A program made the position numbers and the translations under genes. Positions 15,298 through 33,659 of a DNA stretch of 53,486 nt are shown one piece after another. The stretch is from Myxococcota bacterium (GTDB taxonomy: Bacteria; Myxococcota_A; Polyangia; HGW-17): NCBI GenBank assembly GCA_018817795.1, contig JAHITJ010000251.1, positions 1-53,486 on the forward strand. Direction: 5' to 3'. How positions within the stretch are numbered: the first letter of the stretch is position 1; each line of letters opens with the position of its first letter. The notes beneath the pieces were generated by a model, which was not told where the DNA came from, did no database searches, and saw nothing but the letters and a program-made list of their open reading frames with translations.

Positions 15298-17790
<2,493 letters not shown>

Positions 17791-22237: not shown

Positions 22238-22795
22238 ATGTTCATTCCAATTCTTCTCTTTTCTGGTGTTTTCCTCTTTGGTGCCAATCCAGTGGTGACT
22301 CAACCCAAGCCCCAGAATGTTCCCGTGTTGAAATATGCAGGGGTAGCTCCACCCAAACCTGAACTTCCCAAGGAAATCCCTCCTGCAGGCGGAAAATGCG
22401 TAATGCTTTGGCCCGGATTCCAACTCAAGCCATCACCTGGTGGATCGCGCTTCTTCTTTCTCTTCTCATCTCCCTTTCAATTGCAGAGCCAGGATCTCTC
22501 CGAAGGGAATACAAAGATCTTCCGTCTGCTTGCGCCTGCCTGTTCTGCTTGGCAAAAACATGCCTGGCGAGATCTGATCACTCGCTTTTTTCAAACACCA
22601 ATTGAAAAGGTATCTTTCTTCCGTGATGATAAAGGAACGAAACTGATCATTGATTTTCTCTACAAGAATGGAAATAACACGCCAAAACCTGTGATTACTC
22701 ACATGACTTTTCAAAATTACTATTTGCTGATACTGGATTTTCACCCTGATAAGACAGATACACCCGTCAAAGTCCTTCCCACTCCTTCCAAGTAA
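22238..22795 (+). CDS. small exported protein, AMIN-like
   Basis: A 185-residue protein with a hydrophobic N-terminus (MFIPILLFSGVFLFG) likely to be a signal peptide, a Pro/Lys-rich spacer, then about 120 residues of beta-rich sequence. The pattern (GGSRFFFLFSSPFQL ... KVSFFRDDKGTKLIIDFLY ... YYLLILDFHPD) resembles AMIN-type domains of PilQ and AmiC, which bind peptidoglycan or glycans, but this is pattern recognition only. It is AT-rich, like its neighbours. GAGGT lies about 10 bases before the ATG. It converges on recF with 37 bases between stops. No other family is recognised. Confidence 0.5.
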   Translation: MFIPILLFSGVFLFGANPVVTQPKPQNVPVLKYAGVAPPKPELPKEIPPAGGKCVMLWPGFQLKPSPGGSRFFFLFSSPFQLQSQDLSEGNTKIFRLLAPACSAWQKHAWRDLITRFFQTPIEKVSFFRDDKGTKLIIDFLYKNGNNTPKPVITHMTFQNYYLLILDFHPDKTDTPVKVLPTPSK

Positions 22796-22832: not shown

Positions 22833-23870
22833 CTATGCTTGTTGAAATTTTCCTTCAAGCAGTTCAATATCGGTTTTTCCAGATCGGTCATTCGATTTGC
22901 TGGTAATAATGAACTGTGAAGAAGTCTTCTCAATCATTCCGTAGATATTCTTCAAGGTATTCTGATCCAGTTCAGATTCAATGTCGTCAAGGCAAACGAG
23001 ACAATCCTGCTTCGAATTTTCCTTGAGATATTCTAGAAATGCAAAATGGAAAGCCAGATTTATGGCTTTCTTTTCACCATTACTGAAAAATAGTCGGATC
23101 TCTTTTCCTTTTTCAAGAATATCCATTTCATCCCGATGACATCCATAGAGTACCCTTTGCGCGAGTATCTCCTTTTCAACGAAATCATCAGGAATTCTCT
23201 TTCTTCGATAAAGAAGGTTTGATTGACCCAACTTTGGATTGAAAATCTGAATAAAATGCTGGAAAAAGGGATTTATCGCATCCAAAAATGCGTTTCGACT
23301 GGATGAAATGATGTCACTCAGGTGTATAAAAAGGGGGGTTTCGAGGGCCAAAAGGCTCCCCTTTTTAGCCGTATTCGAGAAGAGAATCTGTACTTTTTTG
23401 CTTCGCAAATGGTTGAATTTGAGCAAATTCCCCAAATGATTGGCATCCAGAGCGGAAATATACCGATCGAGAAGAGTTCTTCGATATTCCTGACTTAAAA
23501 AAAATTGATGACTTTCTTCTGGAGAAAAATGGAGAATGCTTTTGTTTTGTATAAAATCGACTGCTTTTACCTTCTGCTGAGCCATGAAAATACTTTTTTC
23601 CATCTGGTCTCCGGAGAAGGTAATACCATGCCGGATTCCCTGGATTTCAGCTGCAATATGAAAGAACTTCTCGCCGTATTGGATACAGTCTTTCAATGTT
23701 TTCCTGTTACGGAAACTTCGAGTTGTATACAATATGAAGATTGCTTCCAACAGATTGGTTTTTCCCGCCCCATTTTGTCCCAAAATGCGAAGAACACGTT
23801 GGGCCGGAAAAACTATGGTCTCTTCGTGAAAATTTCGGAAGTTTTGAAGATGTATTTTTTCCAGGACCAT
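22833..23870 (-). CDS. recF: DNA replication and repair protein RecF
   Basis: RecF is an SMC-like ATPase that directs RecO/RecR to gaps at the junction of single- and double-stranded DNA. Walker A GQNGAGKTNLLEAI sits at about 31-44 and the start LEKIHLQNFRNF is canonical. The signature region reads FFSNGEKKAINLAF (more usual: LSxGQxR), and Walker B is CLVCLDDIESELD. At 345 residues it is slightly short. The start at 23870 lies 7 bases after the dnaN stop, forming a dnaN-recF operon. Base composition is much lower in GC than the flanking genes. The protein is divergent but keeps the key nucleotide-binding residues. Confidence 0.93.
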   Translation of the reverse strand: MVLEKIHLQNFRNFHEETIVFPAQRVLRILGQNGAGKTNLLEAIFILYTTRSFRNRKTLKDCIQYGEKFFHIAAEIQGIRHGITFSGDQMEKSIFMAQQKVKAVDFIQNKSILHFSPEESHQFFLSQEYRRTLLDRYISALDANHLGNLLKFNHLRSKKVQILFSNTAKKGSLLALETPLFIHLSDIISSSRNAFLDAINPFFQHFIQIFNPKLGQSNLLYRRKRIPDDFVEKEILAQRVLYGCHRDEMDILEKGKEIRLFFSNGEKKAINLAFHFAFLEYLKENSKQDCLVCLDDIESELDQNTLKNIYGMIEKTSSQFIITSKSNDRSGKTDIELLEGKFQQA

Positions 23871-23877
23871 TCTGGAA

Positions 23878-24990
23878 TCAGTCGAGACGGATGGGCATCA
23901 AAACGGCAATGAAATTGCTGGTTTCGATAGGTTTGATCAGCGCAGGGCTCTTTGGATTATGAAGGAAAATGCTGAATTCTTTGCCTTGGATCTTGTTGAC
24001 GATGGTGTCAAAGAACTTGATATTAAAGGCAATTTGCATTTTCTCGCCTGTATAATCGACTTCTATTTCTTCTGTTCCCTTGCCCTTCAAGGTATCTATA
24101 CCTGTTAAAACGATGCCATCTTTCTGTATTTTTAAAATAACACCAGCATCACTTCCTTCAAATAGAAGGTTGATTCTCTTTAATGCACCGAGAAACTCCT
24201 CCTTCGGAATGACCAATTTATTGTCCTGATACTGGGGAATGACCTGCTCATACGGAGGAAATTTTGAATCAATCAACTTGATGTTCATCTTGGTGCTATC
24301 CGTTTTAAGCCCAAGAATTTTCAACTCCTTGTCATAGAAAAGACCGACGTTGGCGGAATCATCAGACAGCATTTTCATGATGTCGTTGACTCCCTTCCTC
24401 GGAATGATGATACCATTGGGAATGTTGAATTTTCCTTCAAATGGATATTCAGCAAGTGCCAACTTGTGACCATCGGTTGCCACTGATTTTGCAATGTTCT
24501 TTTCCGTTACAAGGTAAATACCGCCAAGATGTGGCTTTGTCTCGTCTGTTGCAACCGCGAAAAGTGTATGATCCAGCAATTCCCGGAGTATCTGAGATTC
24601 AAAACTTACATAGGCTGAATCCTCGTAAAAATTGAAGTTGGGGAAATCCTCATCGCGTAGCCCATTGAGTTCAAAGCGACTCTTGTGACTGGTAAGAAAA
24701 ATGGCATTTTCTTTCTTCTCAAGAGTCACTTCCTTGCCGGCAAGGTTGGACACAAGTTGATACAGCAGTTTACCATTGACAGTAGCTGTGCCTTGCGCAA
24801 AGACTTCGGCCTGAAATTCGCTGGTGACGGATGTGCTCATATCTGTCGCCCTGCAGAATATTTTTCCATCAGGATTTGCAGTGATCTGAATGTTTGAAAG
24901 GATTGGCTGAATGCTGGCGTTTCCTTCCGAAATTTTCTGGGCAAGGAACAGTCCGTTCAGAAAAGTGGATTTGTTCAACGTGATTTTCAT
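23878..24990 (-). CDS. dnaN: DNA polymerase III beta sliding clamp
   Basis: The homodimeric sliding clamp that tethers replicative polymerase and many repair factors to DNA. The 370-residue product has the three-fold clamp repeat: domain 1 begins MKITLNKSTFLNGLFLAQKI, with ILSNIQITANPDGKIFCRATDMSTSV cut here to ILSNIQITA...CRATDMS. The middle domain has TDGHKLAL and the C-terminus ends VLMPIRLD, where the usual MPM(R/K)-type tail forms part of the binding pocket. The ATG at 24990 is preferred over a GTG two codons upstream because GAGGGG is correctly spaced to it. It is followed by recF. No dnaA is adjacent; instead a 289-base AT-rich gap with DnaA-box-like sites lies upstream. Confidence 0.97.
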   Translation of the reverse strand: MKITLNKSTFLNGLFLAQKISEGNASIQPILSNIQITANPDGKIFCRATDMSTSVTSEFQAEVFAQGTATVNGKLLYQLVSNLAGKEVTLEKKENAIFLTSHKSRFELNGLRDEDFPNFNFYEDSAYVSFESQILRELLDHTLFAVATDETKPHLGGIYLVTEKNIAKSVATDGHKLALAEYPFEGKFNIPNGIIIPRKGVNDIMKMLSDDSANVGLFYDKELKILGLKTDSTKMNIKLIDSKFPPYEQVIPQYQDNKLVIPKEEFLGALKRINLLFEGSDAGVILKIQKDGIVLTGIDTLKGKGTEEIEVDYTGEKMQIAFNIKFFDTIVNKIQGKEFSIFLHNPKSPALIKPIETSNFIAVLMPIRLD

Positions 24991-25279
24991 TTGCACCCCT
25001 CACGGTTGGAAAAAGTATCCCTTTTCCTTTCGGAAATCAATCGGACTTTTACCTAAACTTTGAAAGACAAAACATAAGATCATACGGTCTTTTGTGTCTA
25101 CAAGTGTCCACTACTGCCTATCTACCAGGTTGCTTTTGTCAACAGGTTGTTTGTGACGCATGATTTTATAGACAATTTTCACCTTCGCCTATGTTGAAAG
25201 TTGCTTCCACAGTTTTTTTGTCGACAGGGAGCGTCCGCAGGTTTACAATTTTACGATTTTTTCCGCCTGAGGAGTATCC
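24991..25279. other. AT-rich intergenic region with DnaA-box-like cluster; candidate oriC or dnaN control region
   Basis: This 289-base divergent gap between dnaN and the GYF-protein gene holds several sites related to the DnaA box TTATCCACA. They are GTGTCTACA (25094-25102), GTGTCCACT (25104-25112, in tandem at 10-bp spacing), TTGTCAACA (25136-25144), minus-strand TTGTCTATAA (25166-25175), GCTTCCACA (25203-25211) and TTGTCGACA (25218-25226). Each matches the E. coli consensus at only 6 or 7 of 9 positions, but they share a TGTCNA(C/T)A core. The region is AT-rich and 2.9 kb from parS. It may be the chromosomal origin, or a DnaA-controlled promoter region for dnaN. No perfect DnaA box is present. 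Confidence 0.45.
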
Positions 25280-28200
25280 ATGAAAAAACGATGTTCAAAA
25301 TGCCAGGCCACCCTTCTCGACAATGTCAAGCAATGTCCGCTTTGCTACCATACACCCGAGGAGAACGAGGCAAATTATACCCTCGATGAAGTGCAAACGA
25401 TTTTTGTGAAAAGAAAGAATGAAAAGGTCTTCGGTCCTTTTCCAAAAGCCAAGGTGTTATCCCTGGTATCTTCAGGAAAATTGGAGGCCAGTGAGTTCAT
25501 CTCGGACGATCGTGAGAACTGGATACCTGTCACGTCCGTTCAGGAATTCACGGCGCTTCTTTCAGCGGGTATCAATTTGCCGGGCTCTACATCATCGGTT
25601 GATCTTCCAGCACACAAATCCTTGGGAGAAAGTGATCTTCCTTCGCTGAAAATGGATCCTGTGGGTTTGAAATCAGACCTGCCTGACTTCAAGCAGCCTT
25701 CTCCGCAGCACGATCTTCCATCTTTGAAAATGCAGCATGGCGAACCTGTTGTTAATCTGCCTGCACTTCATGAAGGGATAGCCATCAAGGCTCCTGTTGC
25801 AGGGTCATCCAATGCTTCCCTCCCAGGGCTGAAGACCGATCTTTCGCCGGGAATCAGGGACCTACCGGATGTGAAAAGAGACCTTCCCGGACAACCGGCG
25901 AACCTCCCCGGCTCGAAGTCAGAACTACCCGGACAACCGGCGAACCTCCCCGGCTCGAAGTCAGAACTACCCGGACAACCGACGAACCTCCCCAGCTCGA
26001 AGTCTGAGCTTCCCGGACAACCGGCGAACCTCCCCAGCTCGAAGTCTGAGCTTCCCGGACAACCGGCGAACCTCCCCGGCTCCATCGGATCCATGCCTGG
26101 GGATCGCAAGGATCTGTCGTTGAGCCTATCGGATGCCTTGTCCCGATCCGCCGCCGAGGATGAAGACCAGGAAAAGAATCGTGAGTTTTCCCTTCCACCG
26201 CTGGGTGGAGGACTCATCCCGGAAATCAAAATGGACCTCAATCCTTCGGGTATGAAATCACTGGAAATCAATGGTGACTCCCAGGGAACCGTCGGTTCGA
26301 AAAAACTGGAGATGCCACCAAGTCTCTTTGAGAGTTCGGATCACCTGGATCTCTCGATACTGAATCAGAAGGGTCCTGCTGAGAAGAGCCGGAGCGGACT
26401 GGATCTTGATCATCATGCGGATCATGATGCGGGAGTTGTGGTGGCGTCGCAGTCGCTATCGGACGAAGAGACGATTCCATTGACCCTCGACGATGAGCCG
26501 ATGATGGACAGGCGCCATGACAGACCCTCGCAAAAACGGGCGGCTTCGGGAAACCGCAGATTCCTGATATTGATTCCGCTGGTCCTGCTGCTCGCGGTGG
26601 CCGCTGCGTATCAGTTCAAGATTGGTCCTTTCTCGGGAAAACCAGATTCCACGAAAAACAAAAACAACATGCCGACATCGCCCAAACCAACGGCGGCGGT
26701 CATCTCCGAACACGAGAAGAACATCCTGAACCTGGATTATCCAAAACTGCTGGATTCATCACGTGGGGATGCGATGATTCATTGTGAATCCGCCTTGATA
26801 CTGGCCTGGTTCTACCATGAGTTTGAGCCGCTGGAGTCCTGCAAGAAGTTTCTGCAGACCCCCATTAATTCCACCGGTGACAACGAGACGAGGCGCTTCC
26901 AGTTTTTTCGCGCACTGCTGCTGACCCAGAATCCAAGACAGGCCCAGATGGAACGATTCTTCACCGGAACAGTGACGGATCCGGTCAAGGTCATGGAAGA
27001 GATTCTCTCGGCTTCGCGCAGCCAGAACAACCGCTCCCCGTTGTGGAATTTCCTCGGTGGTGTGCTTCAGATGGAGAAAAAGGACCCCAAAAAAGCAAGG
27101 GAGGCTTTCCAGTTGGTGAACAACACGGAGACGACACCCTCGTTCGGAGTAACCTGGTTCCTCGCGCGGCTCGGGGACGAGTCGGCCATCTCCGCCTTGA
27201 GTATGAATTCCGGAAATACTATCTGGAAATCCCTTCTGCAGGGATTTCAGTATGATGAAAAGAACTTGGGTTCGTTCACTTTCCTGGCATTTCCCGGAGA
27301 GTTCCCGCGGATACCGGTTCCGGAACCCGCGGTACTTGAAAAGATGGGTAGGAGATTCCGGGCCATCAATTTGGCCTTTTCATCGATCGCTGCCTGGGAA
27401 GGTGGTCAACTCGACGCAGCCAATTCCCTGTGTGACAAAGCCATCACCGAGGACGGACAGGACCGCATTGTTTGGCGCCTGTGCAGCCGGATGCGCTTGT
27501 TCCATGGACAATTAGGGAAATTTTCAACGACGGTCAACCTTAATCAGGAAGCCCCGACGATTCTGGCATGGATCATCGAAGGCCGGAAAAATCCAGCATT
27601 GAGTGCCTGGGAGGATTTGAAGAAACAGGATCCGGCCGGGAGCCTGGTGCTGGCACCACTGATTCTGATGCTGTCAGGGGCCGAAACCGAGGATGTTCAG
27701 GCAGCCATTCAGGCCGGCTTGACGGCCGATCTTCCCAGGACGCTGGAGTATCTGTGGACCGGAGTCTGGCAACGCTCGGACCTGGCTGGACAGGTGGAGA
27801 CGGCTGTGTTGGCTTGGGTGGCGGATAAAAAAGATGAAACCCAGGTGGTGAAGGATTTTCTGGGGATACTCACCCTGGTCCAGGCCCTGCAGGCGCAGGA
27901 CTGGAAAAAATTGATCCAGGCCGGTGAAAGCCTGAAAATCAAGGGCTCAACAATGCTGGAGATAGACGGGCTCGTGATGATGGCACGCATGATGGATTCC
28001 AAAGATAATCAGGCCGTGATCTGGGCGGATTCCCAACTCCAGCGGGTTTCTCCGGGGGCGCGATCGGCCGCGGCGCTGATGGCTATCCTGGGGTTGGCCG
28101 GAAAAGTGCAGGAAGCTCACCAGATTCTCGACAAGTACCAGGAAATCTTCCGGGAACCGCTGTTCTTCAAGGTTGCGGCACAGTTATACCTGTCGGGGAC

Positions 28201-28999
28201 GAGAAAGGATCGTCTGATGCGCTCCCGGTTTTTTGCGGAGAAAGCCATCAAGGCCAATCCACAGGACACCGAAGCCCTGTTCCTGATCGGCTTCATTCAA
28301 CTGGAGAGTGGTCAGCCCGAATCAGGCGAGAAGACCATCGTTCAGGCAGTGCAGGCCATGAATCAGCCCGTGCATGCATGGTTCATGCGGTGGTCCGAGC
28401 TCGAGAGCCGGCTGAAGCGCCCGCACATGGCGCTGGCGGCGATGGATGCCGGGCTGCGGAAGAGTCCGGATTATGGTCCGTTTCTTTTCAAGAAAGCACA
28501 AATCCTGGCCACTCAGAACAACCCGAAGGAAGCCCTGAACCTGCTGGAAAAAACGAAAGACGCTGGTATCGAGGAAGTTCAGCGATATATCCTGGAAGGT
28601 CGCTGTCATATTTCGCTTCGCCAGAAACGGGAAGCCGAGACCTCTTTTGCCAAAGCAGTTAAAGCGAATAATAAAAATATCTTGGCGCGCTATCTGCTTG
28701 GAAAGACGCTGTTGGCCAACGGTGCTCTGCGGCCAGCAATACCGCATCTCCAGTTCGCGGCCGAGGAGCTTGAAAAAGTATTGCAGGATCAAAGAATTCC
28801 GGAAGAGGCTGCACACTGGCAGACGGAAACCGTCGAATCCATGTTGGCGGAGACCTGCCGGTTGCTCGGCGGCGCGTACAAGGAAACCGGCAACCGGCAG
28901 ATGGCCATCAAGTACGTGAAGAAGTATGCCACCCTGGTGCCTGACGGACCCATGAAGGACGAGGCTTTGCGCCTTCTGCTTTTGCTTGGTGGGGAATAG
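25280..28999 (+). CDS. zinc-ribbon / GYF / TPR single-pass membrane scaffold protein
   Basis: A 1239-residue protein. A four-Cys zinc ribbon (Cys5, Cys8, Cys19, Cys22) is followed by a GYF_2-like domain (about 39-92; TIFVKRKNEKVFGPFPKAKVL ends before SDDRENWIPV). A long disordered Leu/Pro/Asp/Ser-rich region (95-420) comes next and includes five 14-residue LPGQPANLPGSKSE repeats. One membrane helix (about 427-446, FLILIPLVLLLAVAAAY) separates this from about 790 periplasmic residues dominated by TPR-like helical hairpins. The zinc-ribbon + GYF + disordered + TM order recalls the motility protein AgmX/GltJ, where zinc and GYF modules contact a polarity GTPase. That link is inference. The start has GGAG upstream. 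Its stop overlaps the rsmA start region. Confidence 0.72.
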   Translation: MKKRCSKCQATLLDNVKQCPLCYHTPEENEANYTLDEVQTIFVKRKNEKVFGPFPKAKVLSLVSSGKLEASEFISDDRENWIPVTSVQEFTALLSAGINLPGSTSSVDLPAHKSLGESDLPSLKMDPVGLKSDLPDFKQPSPQHDLPSLKMQHGEPVVNLPALHEGIAIKAPVAGSSNASLPGLKTDLSPGIRDLPDVKRDLPGQPANLPGSKSELPGQPANLPGSKSELPGQPTNLPSSKSELPGQPANLPSSKSELPGQPANLPGSIGSMPGDRKDLSLSLSDALSRSAAEDEDQEKNREFSLPPLGGGLIPEIKMDLNPSGMKSLEINGDSQGTVGSKKLEMPPSLFESSDHLDLSILNQKGPAEKSRSGLDLDHHADHDAGVVVASQSLSDEETIPLTLDDEPMMDRRHDRPSQKRAASGNRRFLILIPLVLLLAVAAAYQFKIGPFSGKPDSTKNKNNMPTSPKPTAAVISEHEKNILNLDYPKLLDSSRGDAMIHCESALILAWFYHEFEPLESCKKFLQTPINSTGDNETRRFQFFRALLLTQNPRQAQMERFFTGTVTDPVKVMEEILSASRSQNNRSPLWNFLGGVLQMEKKDPKKAREAFQLVNNTETTPSFGVTWFLARLGDESAISALSMNSGNTIWKSLLQGFQYDEKNLGSFTFLAFPGEFPRIPVPEPAVLEKMGRRFRAINLAFSSIAAWEGGQLDAANSLCDKAITEDGQDRIVWRLCSRMRLFHGQLGKFSTTVNLNQEAPTILAWIIEGRKNPALSAWEDLKKQDPAGSLVLAPLILMLSGAETEDVQAAIQAGLTADLPRTLEYLWTGVWQRSDLAGQVETAVLAWVADKKDETQVVKDFLGILTLVQALQAQDWKKLIQAGESLKIKGSTMLEIDGLVMMARMMDSKDNQAVIWADSQLQRVSPGARSAAALMAILGLAGKVQEAHQILDKYQEIFREPLFFKVAAQLYLSGTRKDRLMRSRFFAEKAIKANPQDTEALFLIGFIQLESGQPESGEKTIVQAVQAMNQPVHAWFMRWSELESRLKRPHMALAAMDAGLRKSPDYGPFLFKKAQILATQNNPKEALNLLEKTKDAGIEEVQRYILEGRCHISLRQKREAETSFAKAVKANNKNILARYLLGKTLLANGALRPAIPHLQFAAEELEKVLQDQRIPEEAAHWQTETVESMLAETCRLLGGAYKETGNRQMAIKYVKKYATLVPDGPMKDEALRLLLLLGGE
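25883..26092 (+). repeat. 42-bp minisatellite, five units
   Basis: Five head-to-tail 42-bp units, beginning at 25883, 25925, 25967, 26009 and 26051, each encode LPGQPANLPGSKSE with small changes; the last one degenerates after about 30 bases. Units 1-2 and 3-4 are nearly identical pairs, implying recent expansion. There are no spacers, so this is not a CRISPR array. Confidence 0.95.
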
Positions 29000-29004
29000 T
29001 GTCC

Positions 29005-29892
29005 ATGTCTGGAGCGGGTGAAGCGTGGCTGGGACAGTGGATCCCGAGCAAGGCCTGGGGTCAAAATTATTTAATCAATGGCGGAGTCATCGAGAAAATC
29101 GTGGATCTTTTACCGGTGCAAGCCAGACCGGTGATTGAGATCGGGTCCGGAAGGGGTGCGCTCACGAACGAGTTGCTCGCGCGGAGATTTGAAGTGATCG
29201 CCATCGAGCCGCACCGGGAGTCGGCTGCGTATCTGACGCACCGGTTCGGTGAGGATCCTCACTTCTCCCTGCGCGAAGAGGATGCCACGACGCTTGATTT
29301 TTCTTCTCTGCTTCAAGCGGGGGAATCCGGCGTCTTAGCGCCCGGCGACATCATGTCCCCTGGCGTTCTCACGCCGCCCGGCGTTCTCACGCCGCCCGGC
29401 GTTCTCACGCCGGCAGTGATTGGAAACCTGCCATACTGCGTGGCCGCGAGGATTTTGTTCGCACTGATCAGGACTGGGCGTGCGTGCTCGCCCTGGGTGC
29501 TGATGTTCCAGCGCGAGGTGGCGCAGCGGATCGTGGCCGGCCCGCATTCCAGGGAGTATGGACTTCTCTCGGTAGTCGCGCAACTGGCGGCCGGGTGCAC
29601 GATCTGCTTTCATGTGAGTCCCGGGTCCTTCTCGCCGGCCCCCAAGATCACCTCCTCGGTCGTGCGCTTTGAGCCGTTGCCGACTCGGAACGTCGACTGG
29701 AACGCCCTCTCGGTATGGCTGACCCGGATCTTTTCTATGCGCCGAAAGCAGATGGGCAACATCCTGACTTCGATGCTTCCGGCTGATCGGATCAAAGCGT
29801 TGCGCGCGGCCCCGCCGTTCTCCCTCCAACTCCGACCCGAGCAACTTTCACCCGAGGTGCATCTGGACCTTTTCGAGCGCTGCAGGGTGTGA
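29005..29892 (+). CDS. rsmA: 16S rRNA dimethyladenosine transferase RsmA (KsgA) with repeat insert
   Basis: Dimethylates two adjacent adenines near the 3' end of 16S rRNA, a late step in 30S assembly. Motifs seen: WGQNYLINGGVIEKIV (family: GQNFL), SAM-binding EIGSGRGALTNELL, acidic IAIEPH, EEDAT, and the catalytic NLPY. The C-terminal domain follows (FSMRRKQMGN). Between EEDAT and NLPY, about 35 residues rich in Gly/Pro/Val/Leu/Thr are inserted, encoded by 18-bp repeats that contain hairpins. Starts at GTG 28999 (overlapping the upstream TAG) and ATG 29005 are both possible; the ATG has better spacing from GGTGGGG. It is probably coupled to the GYF gene upstream. Confidence 0.93.
   Translation: MSGAGEAWLGQWIPSKAWGQNYLINGGVIEKIVDLLPVQARPVIEIGSGRGALTNELLARRFEVIAIEPHRESAAYLTHRFGEDPHFSLREEDATTLDFSSLLQAGESGVLAPGDIMSPGVLTPPGVLTPPGVLTPAVIGNLPYCVAARILFALIRTGRACSPWVLMFQREVAQRIVAGPHSREYGLLSVVAQLAAGCTICFHVSPGSFSPAPKITSSVVRFEPLPTRNVDWNALSVWLTRIFSMRRKQMGNILTSMLPADRIKALRAAPPFSLQLRPEQLSPEVHLDLFERCRV
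29341..29412 (+). repeat. 18-bp hairpin-containing repeats inside rsmA
   Basis: Four 18-bp units: a divergent first one at 29341-29358 (core GACATCATGTC, itself a dyad), then three almost identical ones at 29359, 29377 and 29395 with core GGCGTTCTCACGCC (arms GGCGT and ACGCC around TCTC). They encode PGDIMS and PGVLTP in frame. Confidence 0.9.
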
Positions 29893-31013: not shown

Positions 31014-33659
31014 ATGCGTAATCTCTTCTTTGTCACATTCCTTTGTGTCTCCCTTGTTTCGGGAACGGGTCTGGCCCAGCCATCCCCGATTTCGCGTCCG
31101 ATCCGGCCCACCGTCCAGCCCGGCAACACATCGGGGGCCAAGCCACCTGCGCCTGGCTCGACCGGGGATGCAGGGACGGCCAAGGATGATCCGAATTTCA
31201 ACGAATGCAAGAACATCCCCGGCTACCGGAAGATGAAGGTCACGCTCAAGCCGGAGTCCACACTGGCTGACCTGGTCTCCTGGATTTCCTCGATCACGTG
31301 CAAGCGCTTCATCGTCAGTGCAGGACTGCGGGCGCAGCGCGTGACCATCTACAGTCCCTCGGAAGTGACCGCGTACGAGGCATACAAGGCTTTTCTGTCT
31401 TCCCTGGAGGCGATGAACCTGACCATCCAGCAGTCGGGTCAGTATTACAAGGTCATCGAGATCGCCGGAGCCAATTCGGTCGTACAGCCGTTGACCGTGC
31501 CCGGAGAGGCGGTCGCCAACAACGAGAGCTTCACCACGGCGATGATTCACGTCAAGCATGCCAGCGTGTCGGAGGTGGCTGAGATTCTGGGCAAATTCAA
31601 GTCCAAATATGGTGACATCACCACGTATTCCCCGACGAACCTGCTGATCATCACCGACATGGGCACGAGCATCACCCGCCTGCTGAAGATCCTGAGCCAG
31701 CTCGATATCGAGGGTGTGCATGACGAGCGCGTGTGGGTGCTGAAAGTAAAGAACGCAGATGCCGAGGAGGTCGCCACCAAGTTGACAGAGGTGTTCGATG
31801 TCTCCGAAAGCGGTTCCAGCGGCACCAACACACCGGCTCCCAACATGGGAGGCCGTCGTCGCGGTCAGACGGCTCCGACCAAGGTCTACAACCCCCAGAC
31901 CCCGGGGGGCTCCGGTGGCGTGCAGAACGTAGGCACGAAGAATTCAATCTCGAAGATCATCGCCGAGCCTCGCACGAATAGTTTAATCATTGTTGCGAAT
32001 GACGCGGCCTATCTGGAGTTGCTCGCGTTGTTCCAGAAGCTCGACGTCCCCCTTCCGGGCGGCGAGGAAAAAATCAACATCGTCTACCTCGAGAACGCCG
32101 TCGCCGAGGATATGGCAGGCCTGTTGTCGGCCCTGACCGGCGGCACCAACAGCGGTACGAGCCGCACGACGTCAACCTCACGAACCTCGCGTACTTCCCG
32201 CACGAGCACCAACCGGAACCAGCGGGGCGGAAATCAATACGGAGGGTATAATCCGATGGGCGGATGGGGTGGTGGTGGCAACGCCGAGAGCCTGTTCCAG
32301 GGTCCGGTGCAGATCCAGCCGGATCCGGCTACCAATTCCCTGGTGATCGTTGCATCCAATAAAGATTTCCTGTCCATCAAGCGCGTCATCAAGGAGCTCG
32401 ATCGTCCTCGCCGTCAGGTCTTTGTGGAAGTGACCATCCTTGAGGTGTCCCTGGACAAGACCCGCAACATCGGTATGTCGTTCCATGGTGGTGATCCGAT
32501 GGGCTCCGGGGACAAGCAGTCCTTCCTGTTCGGCGGCTCGATCACGAACTCCTCAATGAACTCGATCATCATGAACCCGCTCTCCCTGATGGGCATGGCC
32601 GTTGGTCTGCGTGGTCCCGAGATCAAGGACGCCGAGTCCCTGCTGGGCATCCCGGGCATATCCTTCCCCTCCTTTGGTGTGATGTTCCAGGCGCTGCAGA
32701 GCAACAACGCGGTCAACGTCATCAGTTCACCGCACATCCTGACCACCGACAACGAGGAAGCCGAGATCACCGTCGGTGAGAACGTGCCGTTCCAGAGCGG
32801 CTATTCTTCCATTTCCTCACTGGCCTCCTCGTTCTCCAGTTCTTCTTCGGCCCTGTCTTCGATGCCGATGGTGTCGGTGCAGCGCCAGGACGTGGCGCTA
32901 AAGTTGAAACTCACACCGCACGTGAACCAGAGCGATTTCGTGCGCATGGAAGTGGATCAGGAGATCAACGAGGTCAAGTCCATCGACCAGGTCGTGGGAC
33001 CGACCACCTCCAAGCGCAAGGCAACGACGGTCGTCGTGGTCAAGGACCAGCAGACCGTGGTCATCGGTGGACTGATCACCGAAAAGATCAAGGAAAATGT
33101 GCAGAAGGTCCCCCTGTTGGGCGACATCCCCATCCTGGGCTACATGTTCAAGTCGACCACACGGATCACCGAGAAGACCAACCTGCTGATCTTCATCACG
33201 CCTTACATCATCCGCGACGAGAGCGATCTGCGCCGGATTTTCATGGAAAAAGTGAAGCTTCGCAAGGAGTTCATCGAGAAGTACTCCACCTTCCGGGATC
33301 AGGATTTCGAGGCTGATATCAATTATAAACACAAGCACGGATTCTTTGAGGACATCAACCGGACCGCCCACCGCATGGAAGAGGAAATCATCCAGCGCAA
33401 GAAGGCAATGGACGAGTACAAGGTCGTGGACTCCTCCGGACCGGTGAGCGTGAACAAGAGGGACATCAAGGAAGTACACCGGATGCTGCAGAAGATGCGC
33501 GAAGACGATGAATCGGATCCGGTCGAAGTAGAGCCCGACGGCGACGGCAAGACGCCTCCGGCTGACGGCAAGACGCCTCCGGCTGACGGCAAGACGCCTC
33601 CGGCTGACGGCAAGACGCCTCCGGCTGACGGTAAGACGCCGAAGCCGGCCGGGAGGTGA
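31014..33659 (+). CDS. gspD: type II secretion secretin GspD
   Basis: The outer-membrane channel of the system. The start at 31014 is chosen because GGAG lies 6 bases upstream; ATGs at 31008 and 31011 would overlap it. The signal peptide ends near LAQ. N0 (about 60-150) is followed by N1-N3 domains (VKHASVSEVAEIL; DAEEVATKLTEVF; LENAVAEDMAGLLSAL), with a Ser/Thr/Arg-rich and Gly-rich insert in N3. The secretin core follows (VEVTILEVSLDKTRNIG; NVISSPHILTTDNEEAEI; VPLLGDIPILGYMFKS). After the core, a charged helical tail leads to a C-terminal DGKTPPA repeat. The S-domain for a pilotin is not obvious. It is 15 bases after gspC and overlaps the gspE upstream frame. Confidence 0.96.
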   Translation: MRNLFFVTFLCVSLVSGTGLAQPSPISRPIRPTVQPGNTSGAKPPAPGSTGDAGTAKDDPNFNECKNIPGYRKMKVTLKPESTLADLVSWISSITCKRFIVSAGLRAQRVTIYSPSEVTAYEAYKAFLSSLEAMNLTIQQSGQYYKVIEIAGANSVVQPLTVPGEAVANNESFTTAMIHVKHASVSEVAEILGKFKSKYGDITTYSPTNLLIITDMGTSITRLLKILSQLDIEGVHDERVWVLKVKNADAEEVATKLTEVFDVSESGSSGTNTPAPNMGGRRRGQTAPTKVYNPQTPGGSGGVQNVGTKNSISKIIAEPRTNSLIIVANDAAYLELLALFQKLDVPLPGGEEKINIVYLENAVAEDMAGLLSALTGGTNSGTSRTTSTSRTSRTSRTSTNRNQRGGNQYGGYNPMGGWGGGGNAESLFQGPVQIQPDPATNSLVIVASNKDFLSIKRVIKELDRPRRQVFVEVTILEVSLDKTRNIGMSFHGGDPMGSGDKQSFLFGGSITNSSMNSIIMNPLSLMGMAVGLRGPEIKDAESLLGIPGISFPSFGVMFQALQSNNAVNVISSPHILTTDNEEAEITVGENVPFQSGYSSISSLASSFSSSSSALSSMPMVSVQRQDVALKLKLTPHVNQSDFVRMEVDQEINEVKSIDQVVGPTTSKRKATTVVVVKDQQTVVIGGLITEKIKENVQKVPLLGDIPILGYMFKSTTRITEKTNLLIFITPYIIRDESDLRRIFMEKVKLRKEFIEKYSTFRDQDFEADINYKHKHGFFEDINRTAHRMEEEIIQRKKAMDEYKVVDSSGPVSVNKRDIKEVHRMLQKMREDDESDPVEVEPDGDGKTPPADGKTPPADGKTPPADGKTPPADGKTPKPAGR
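33543..33647 (+). repeat. 21-bp minisatellite at the 3' end of gspD
   Basis: Four perfect 21-bp units (GACGGCAAGACGCCTCCGGCT is the unit, given as GACGGCAAGACGCCT + CCGGCT) at 33543, 33564, 33585 and 33606, plus a degenerate fifth. They encode DGKTPPA repeats at the very C-terminus of the secretin. Confidence 0.95.

Follow-up and report, generated by a model that had tools for sequence, protein, structure and literature searches.

ZGT, a zinc ribbon, GYF and TPR protein encoded beside a probable chromosomal origin in Myxococcota: a candidate trans-envelope adaptor

The locus described here raises the question of what a protein might do that joins a zinc ribbon and a GYF domain, across a single membrane helix, to a long TPR solenoid, and whose gene lies next to a probable chromosomal origin. 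An earlier note on this DNA had suggested that such a protein could link cytoplasmic polarity or motility factors to the periplasm, possibly as a polarity or segregation anchor. The window, i.e. the whole stretch of 53,486 nucleotides that was analysed, stems from a bacterium of the phylum Myxococcota. We use ZGT as a label for the protein with the layout zinc ribbon - GYF - LPxxK linker - membrane helix - TPR solenoid.

Parts of ZGT and their predicted arrangement

The architecture claimed in the earlier note, consisting of a zinc ribbon, a GYF domain, a proline-rich tether, one membrane helix and TPRs, is real, as all of these parts were recovered in the open reading frame:

25280..28999, + strand: full ZGT gene, 1239 aa, ATG start (open reading frame, Pfam, orthologues)
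25292..25345, + strand: zinc ribbon (CSKC..CPLC), residues 5-22 (cysteine pattern, alignment, Pfam)
25400..25561, + strand: GYF domain, residues 41-94 (Pfam, rescoring, profile, fold prediction)
25568..26560, + strand: linker of low complexity and presumably disordered, residues 97-427, containing the repeats DLPxLK and LPGQPxNLPxSKSE
25879..26082, + strand: 42-bp tandem repeat within the linker, 4.9 copies, coding for the LPGQPxNLPxSKSE units
26561..26617, + strand: single transmembrane helix, residues 428-446 (hydropathy scan), with basic residues just N-terminal of it
26618..28996, + strand: alpha-solenoid, predicted to be periplasmic, residues 447-1239, with clear TPRs at about 980-1215

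The two CxxC pairs of the N-terminus, CSKC at residue 5 and CPLC at residue 19, are spaced by 14 residues, and the cysteines 5, 8, 19 and 22 are invariant in five aligned sequences. The match to the Pfam family Zn_Ribbon_1 reaches an E-value of 0.031 only, and the cysteine spacing is shorter than in zinc ribbons of the 23-residue MJ0042 type.

The GYF_2 family matches residues 46-90 under the Pfam cut-off (E 0.0017; 1.7e-4 upon whole-genome rescoring). Structure prediction of the front half recovered the proposed GYF fold: the AF2 model of residues 1-103, built from five sequences (pLDDT 83.8), matches GYF domains of the PDB, among them those of GltJ (PDB entry 7z3c), Smy2 and GIGYF, with Foldseek probabilities of 0.97-1.00 (0.99 for 7z3c), none of the E-values being below 0.001. 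The GltJ domain 7z3c is also the top PDB match of the ZGT sequence profile (E 0.01). The signature of the GYF domain in the ZGT family can be written as KRxxxKVFGPF...SxDxxxW or as KRxxGKVFGPF...VSxDxxxW. Strong matches to this type (E<=1e-12) lie mostly in frames of more than 1100 aa and GltJ-type GYF domains score much lower; judged by these sequence scores, the GYF domain of ZGT is a subfamily distinct from the GltJ type.

The linker of about 330 residues contains 12% proline and 16 LPxxK/H or LPGQP units. It is followed by the membrane helix, which has a net charge of +5 on its N-terminal side. Hydropathy and charge are consistent with an N-in/C-out topology, and this predicted topology fits the suggested link between cytoplasm and periplasm. 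The "huge TPR array" of the earlier description holds for about the last third of the protein, where clear TPRs are present (TPR_19, E 6.5e-14), whereas the remainder of residues 485-1239 is only predicted to be helical, with lower confidence (pLDDT 66). Both the solved structures and the folds matched by the TPR part are generic solenoids of this type (query TM-scores of about 0.2-0.3) and are uninformative.

Distribution of the family within the Myxococcota

ZGT shares 92% and 78% identity with its counterparts in two congeners, HGW-Deltaproteobacteria-22 and -17 (Deltaproteobacteria bacterium), and about 30% with proteins from other genera and families of its order, while proteins of the same layout outside the order are about 15% identical to it. 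Since the layout recurs at all of these levels of identity, it does not reflect chance. The order-level profile and the wider profile align over 635 columns with a probability of 99.9%, but as TPRs align to each other readily, family homology was judged by the entire layout rather than by the profile score in isolation.

The phylum was searched with a 16-row profile of the part C-terminal to the membrane helix (777 positions). Among the matches listed, 58 of 141 Myxococcota genomes contain one that covers at least 600 of the 777 positions. We read 40 loci sampled from the profile matches in full, and in 39 of them a membrane helix is followed by 750-850 aa of TPRs; the exception, G134, has its best-scoring hydrophobic stretch further upstream. 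Of the sampled members, 34 have an intact N-terminus, and each of these carries a zinc ribbon, a GYF domain or both. Many members retain the zinc ribbon only, and on a tree of the TPR part the presence of the GYF domain requires at least six changes. The candidate G303 turned out to be a TPR protein with a signal peptide and was ruled out as a family member. The search for the same architecture that the earlier note had proposed thus found the layout phylum-wide, with a membrane helix in the sampled orthologs.

ZGT has the features that define the family, i.e. a zinc ribbon and/or GYF domain, one membrane helix and a TPR solenoid of 750-850 aa that aligns along the greater part of its length. 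Sequence comparison and structural models place it in a Myxococcota-wide family of predicted single-pass scaffold proteins of the inner membrane, which is apparently unnamed so far.

Gene neighbourhood and the probable origin

The following features surround the ZGT gene in the window:

16339..17790, + strand: serS, 7.5 kb upstream of ZGT (identity read from the sequence)
22833..23870, - strand: recF, upstream of ZGT beyond dnaN
23878..24996, - strand: dnaN, divergent neighbour of ZGT, conserved in the family of the window (f1)
24997..25279, no strand: dnaN-ZGT intergenic region, probable oriC, with TTGTCAACA at 25136 and TTGTCGACA at 25218
28999..29892, + strand: rsmA (ksgA), overlapping ZGT by one base, the final one of its stop codon
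30087..44291, + strand: gspC-D-E-F-G-H-I-J-K-L-M-N, type II secretion operon (gspI by position, without a family match)

Some further peculiarities were observed here. A protein of unknown family is encoded at 22238-22795, and its place beside recF is conserved in f1. The rsmA gene contains an in-frame repeat coding for (GVLTPP)n inside the methyltransferase (29339-29412), and a 21-bp tandem repeat of 4.9 copies is found where gspD ends, directly ahead of gspE (33539-33640).

The gap between dnaN and ZGT comprises 283 bp with a GC content of 41%, compared to 59% for the window, and the minimum of the cumulative GC-skew is located at 26097. The motif TTRTCRACA has 15 matches in 140 kb of six f1 genomes, and 12 of the 15 are inside dnaN-ZGT gaps, where 0.09 would be expected after shuffling; as the motif was picked by eye from the alignment and counted afterwards, the p-value is post hoc and overstates the case. 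TTRTCRACA was also detected in two more genomes outside the alignment that had suggested it. Canonical DnaA boxes (TTWTNCACA) are absent from the gap, and no TTRTCRACA is present in the 11 kb around dnaA, which is located on another contig (G000:C244). The dnaN-ZGT gap is probably the oriC of f1, with TTRTCRACA as a variant putative box, and it keeps its position in six f1 genomes. The skew minimum and the clustering of the motif support the notion of an origin-proximal locus.

The position next to rsmA and the origin is a property of f1, as the order dnaN-ZGT-rsmA is kept only within this family. Elsewhere, other genes adjoin the ZGT-family members: serS within about 0.15 kb in f13 and f46 and at about 2 kb in f15, selB in five families, a DnaK-like gene in f22, f36 and f44, ftsZ together with a zinc-ribbon kinase in f3, or dnaX-mglBA (serS, selB and dnaX were named from their sequences, with no family scan). 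In G009, ftsZ and ZGT are separated by the gene of a kinase that has an N-terminal zinc ribbon of its own (L036, 1665-2981).

It is very improbable that ZGT is a chromosome-origin or segregation anchor, i.e. a membrane scaffold linked to the origin next to its gene. The gene does flank the probable oriC, with its AT-rich gap, nearby skew minimum and clustered motifs, and its linkage to dnaN is kept in f1. However, this linkage is limited to f1, a DNA-binding domain was not found in ZGT with Pfam, and the position of a gene near the origin implies no function there. The segregation anchor of the earlier note is therefore unsupported, since the dnaN-ZGT-rsmA linkage is absent outside the family of the window.

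The genes downstream suggest a different role, in which ZGT would serve type II secretion as an accessory or assembly factor, its solenoid acting at the periplasmic face of the Gsp complex and its gene being the first of an rsmA-gsp operon. Indeed, ZGT, rsmA and gspC to gspN are co-directional and tightly spaced in three species of the genus. Their adjacency is restricted to this genus, however; in other genera of f1, the genes after ZGT-rsmA are one for a TPR protein and apparent tRNA-modification genes instead of gsp genes, and no adjoining gsp genes were found in other families, save a distant gspD-like match in f2. As the gsp linkage is confined to the genus, we rejected a type II secretion partner as the general role, and consider such a factor unlikely altogether.

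A predicted role and comparison with known systems

On balance, we believe that ZGT is a trans-envelope adaptor whose cytosolic head takes a spatial cue and whose solenoid gathers envelope partners; its predicted role would probably be to relay positional information from the cytoplasm to the envelope. The head, be it a zinc ribbon, a GYF domain or both, may bind a cytosolic partner via short motifs, and this binding would take ZGT to a certain site of the cell. There, the solenoid could dock periplasmic or outer-membrane partners and ZGT would thereby tie cytoplasmic polarity to motility or to the assembly of the envelope.

Where the GYF domain is present, the MglA/MglB polarity switch is the leading candidate for this cytosolic partner, by analogy with GltJ, whose cytosolic part binds MglA and AglZ. 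This choice is based on the GltJ-like head, on the presence of an mgl operon in the genome and on the gene order in f46 and f21. An MglA-type partner, for which the earlier note had proposed to look, is indeed encoded: the genome of the window possesses a true MglA (match to 6hjh, E 8.9e-102) and MglB (match to 6hjm, E 1.2e-52) as an mglBA pair (L102) on a contig other than that of ZGT. In G279 and G223, two genomes from a different family, the genes ZGT-serS-dnaX-...-mglB-mglA follow one another within about 7 kb; in G053, ZGT is preceded by mglA-mglB-dnaX. What connects ZGT to mgl is a block of housekeeping genes (serS-dnaX), and the linkage may be neutral.

MglA is not a universal or obligatory partner, since a clade without it keeps the family: no MglA match at E<=1e-25 was obtained in the sampled genomes of f34, f38, f52 and f54, which retain ZGT-family members lacking the GYF domain. 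MglA is present in 13 of 13 cases with the GYF domain and in 19 of 27 without it, but this association, suggestive by count, is not significant and comes down to one independent contrast on the tree. The polarity anchor of the earlier note is plausible with regard to the GltJ-like head and the MglA in the genome, and the family persists in the MglA-less clade. As the partner of the ZGT head, MglA is possible but doubtful.

The same persistence would be expected of a general scaffold for periplasmic or outer-membrane biogenesis without any tie to polarity, whose head senses another signal or whose zinc ribbon and GYF domain only self-assemble. The zinc ribbon alone is retained in many members, and an outer-membrane-protein-like neighbour recurs in five families, which would both agree with such a scaffold. 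Yet this neighbour is convergent with the ZGT-family genes and often separated from them by selB, and the retention of a GltJ-type GYF domain across many deep lineages would be left unexplained. We regard such a scaffold as a possible but rather unlikely explanation. The neighbour itself (L045, 15815-16645) is a small exported protein with an outer-membrane-protein-like C-terminal phenylalanine and without a Pfam match, and its gene is adjacent to those of ZGT-family members or within about 5.5 kb of them.

Returning to the trans-envelope adaptor, we can extend it, quite tentatively and with little confidence, to a second class of MglA-linked transducers present across most of the phylum. In these, a GltJ-type head would place a giant periplasmic TPR platform and couple front-rear polarity to machines of the envelope that are distinct from the gliding apparatus; the MglA-less clade would have retained the platform together with a head that consists of the zinc ribbon only and serves another cue. 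A short list of MglA effectors is known through which myxobacterial polarity acts. GltJ is listed among them, as is SgmX, a TPR-domain protein that serves as an MglA effector for type IV pili (PMC12288465). With its GltJ-like head, its larger predicted periplasmic arm and its location beside mglBA in some lineages, ZGT is a testable candidate for a missing link from the polarity switch to the envelope. In the family of the window, it additionally marks the probable oriC with its variant box motif.

Among the known systems, several proteins of gliding and pili resemble ZGT in part. GltE, Tgl and PilW have TPRs on the periplasmic side, like the predicted arm of ZGT, but lack a cytosolic head, being lipoproteins or exported proteins; the matches of sampled ZGT-family members to their models are weak and far below the cut-offs, no more than generic TPR similarity would produce. 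SgmX is a TPR protein as well, but a cytosolic one. The polar scaffolds of the FimV and TspA type span the inner membrane once and have an arm on either side of it, one of them made of TPRs. In these, the LysM part is periplasmic and the TPR part cytoplasmic, the opposite of the arrangement predicted for ZGT.

The closest likeness is that to GltJ/AgmX (NF033761) of the M. xanthus gliding machinery, the source of the GYF structure 7z3c, as the earlier note had recognised in describing an AgmX/GltJ-like front with a TPR back; the match of the head fold to 7z3c and the TPR_19 repeats towards the C-terminus bear this out. Both proteins have a zinc ribbon, a GYF domain, a low-complexity linker, one membrane helix and a protein arm beyond the membrane, and both occur in the same phylum. 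They differ in this arm, which is a short AgmX/PglI C-terminal domain in GltJ and a solenoid of about 790 aa in ZGT. We rejected ZGT as GltJ itself: it matches neither NF033761 nor NF033768 at E<=0.001 and lacks the AgmX/PglI (myxo_SS_tail) tail, and two separate GltJ-like proteins in the same genome match both models, below the curated cut-offs. ZGT would rather act like a GltJ in which a built-in TPR platform replaces the AgmX/PglI tail. As far as the sequences tell, ZGT joins a GltJ-like head to a different, TPR back end.
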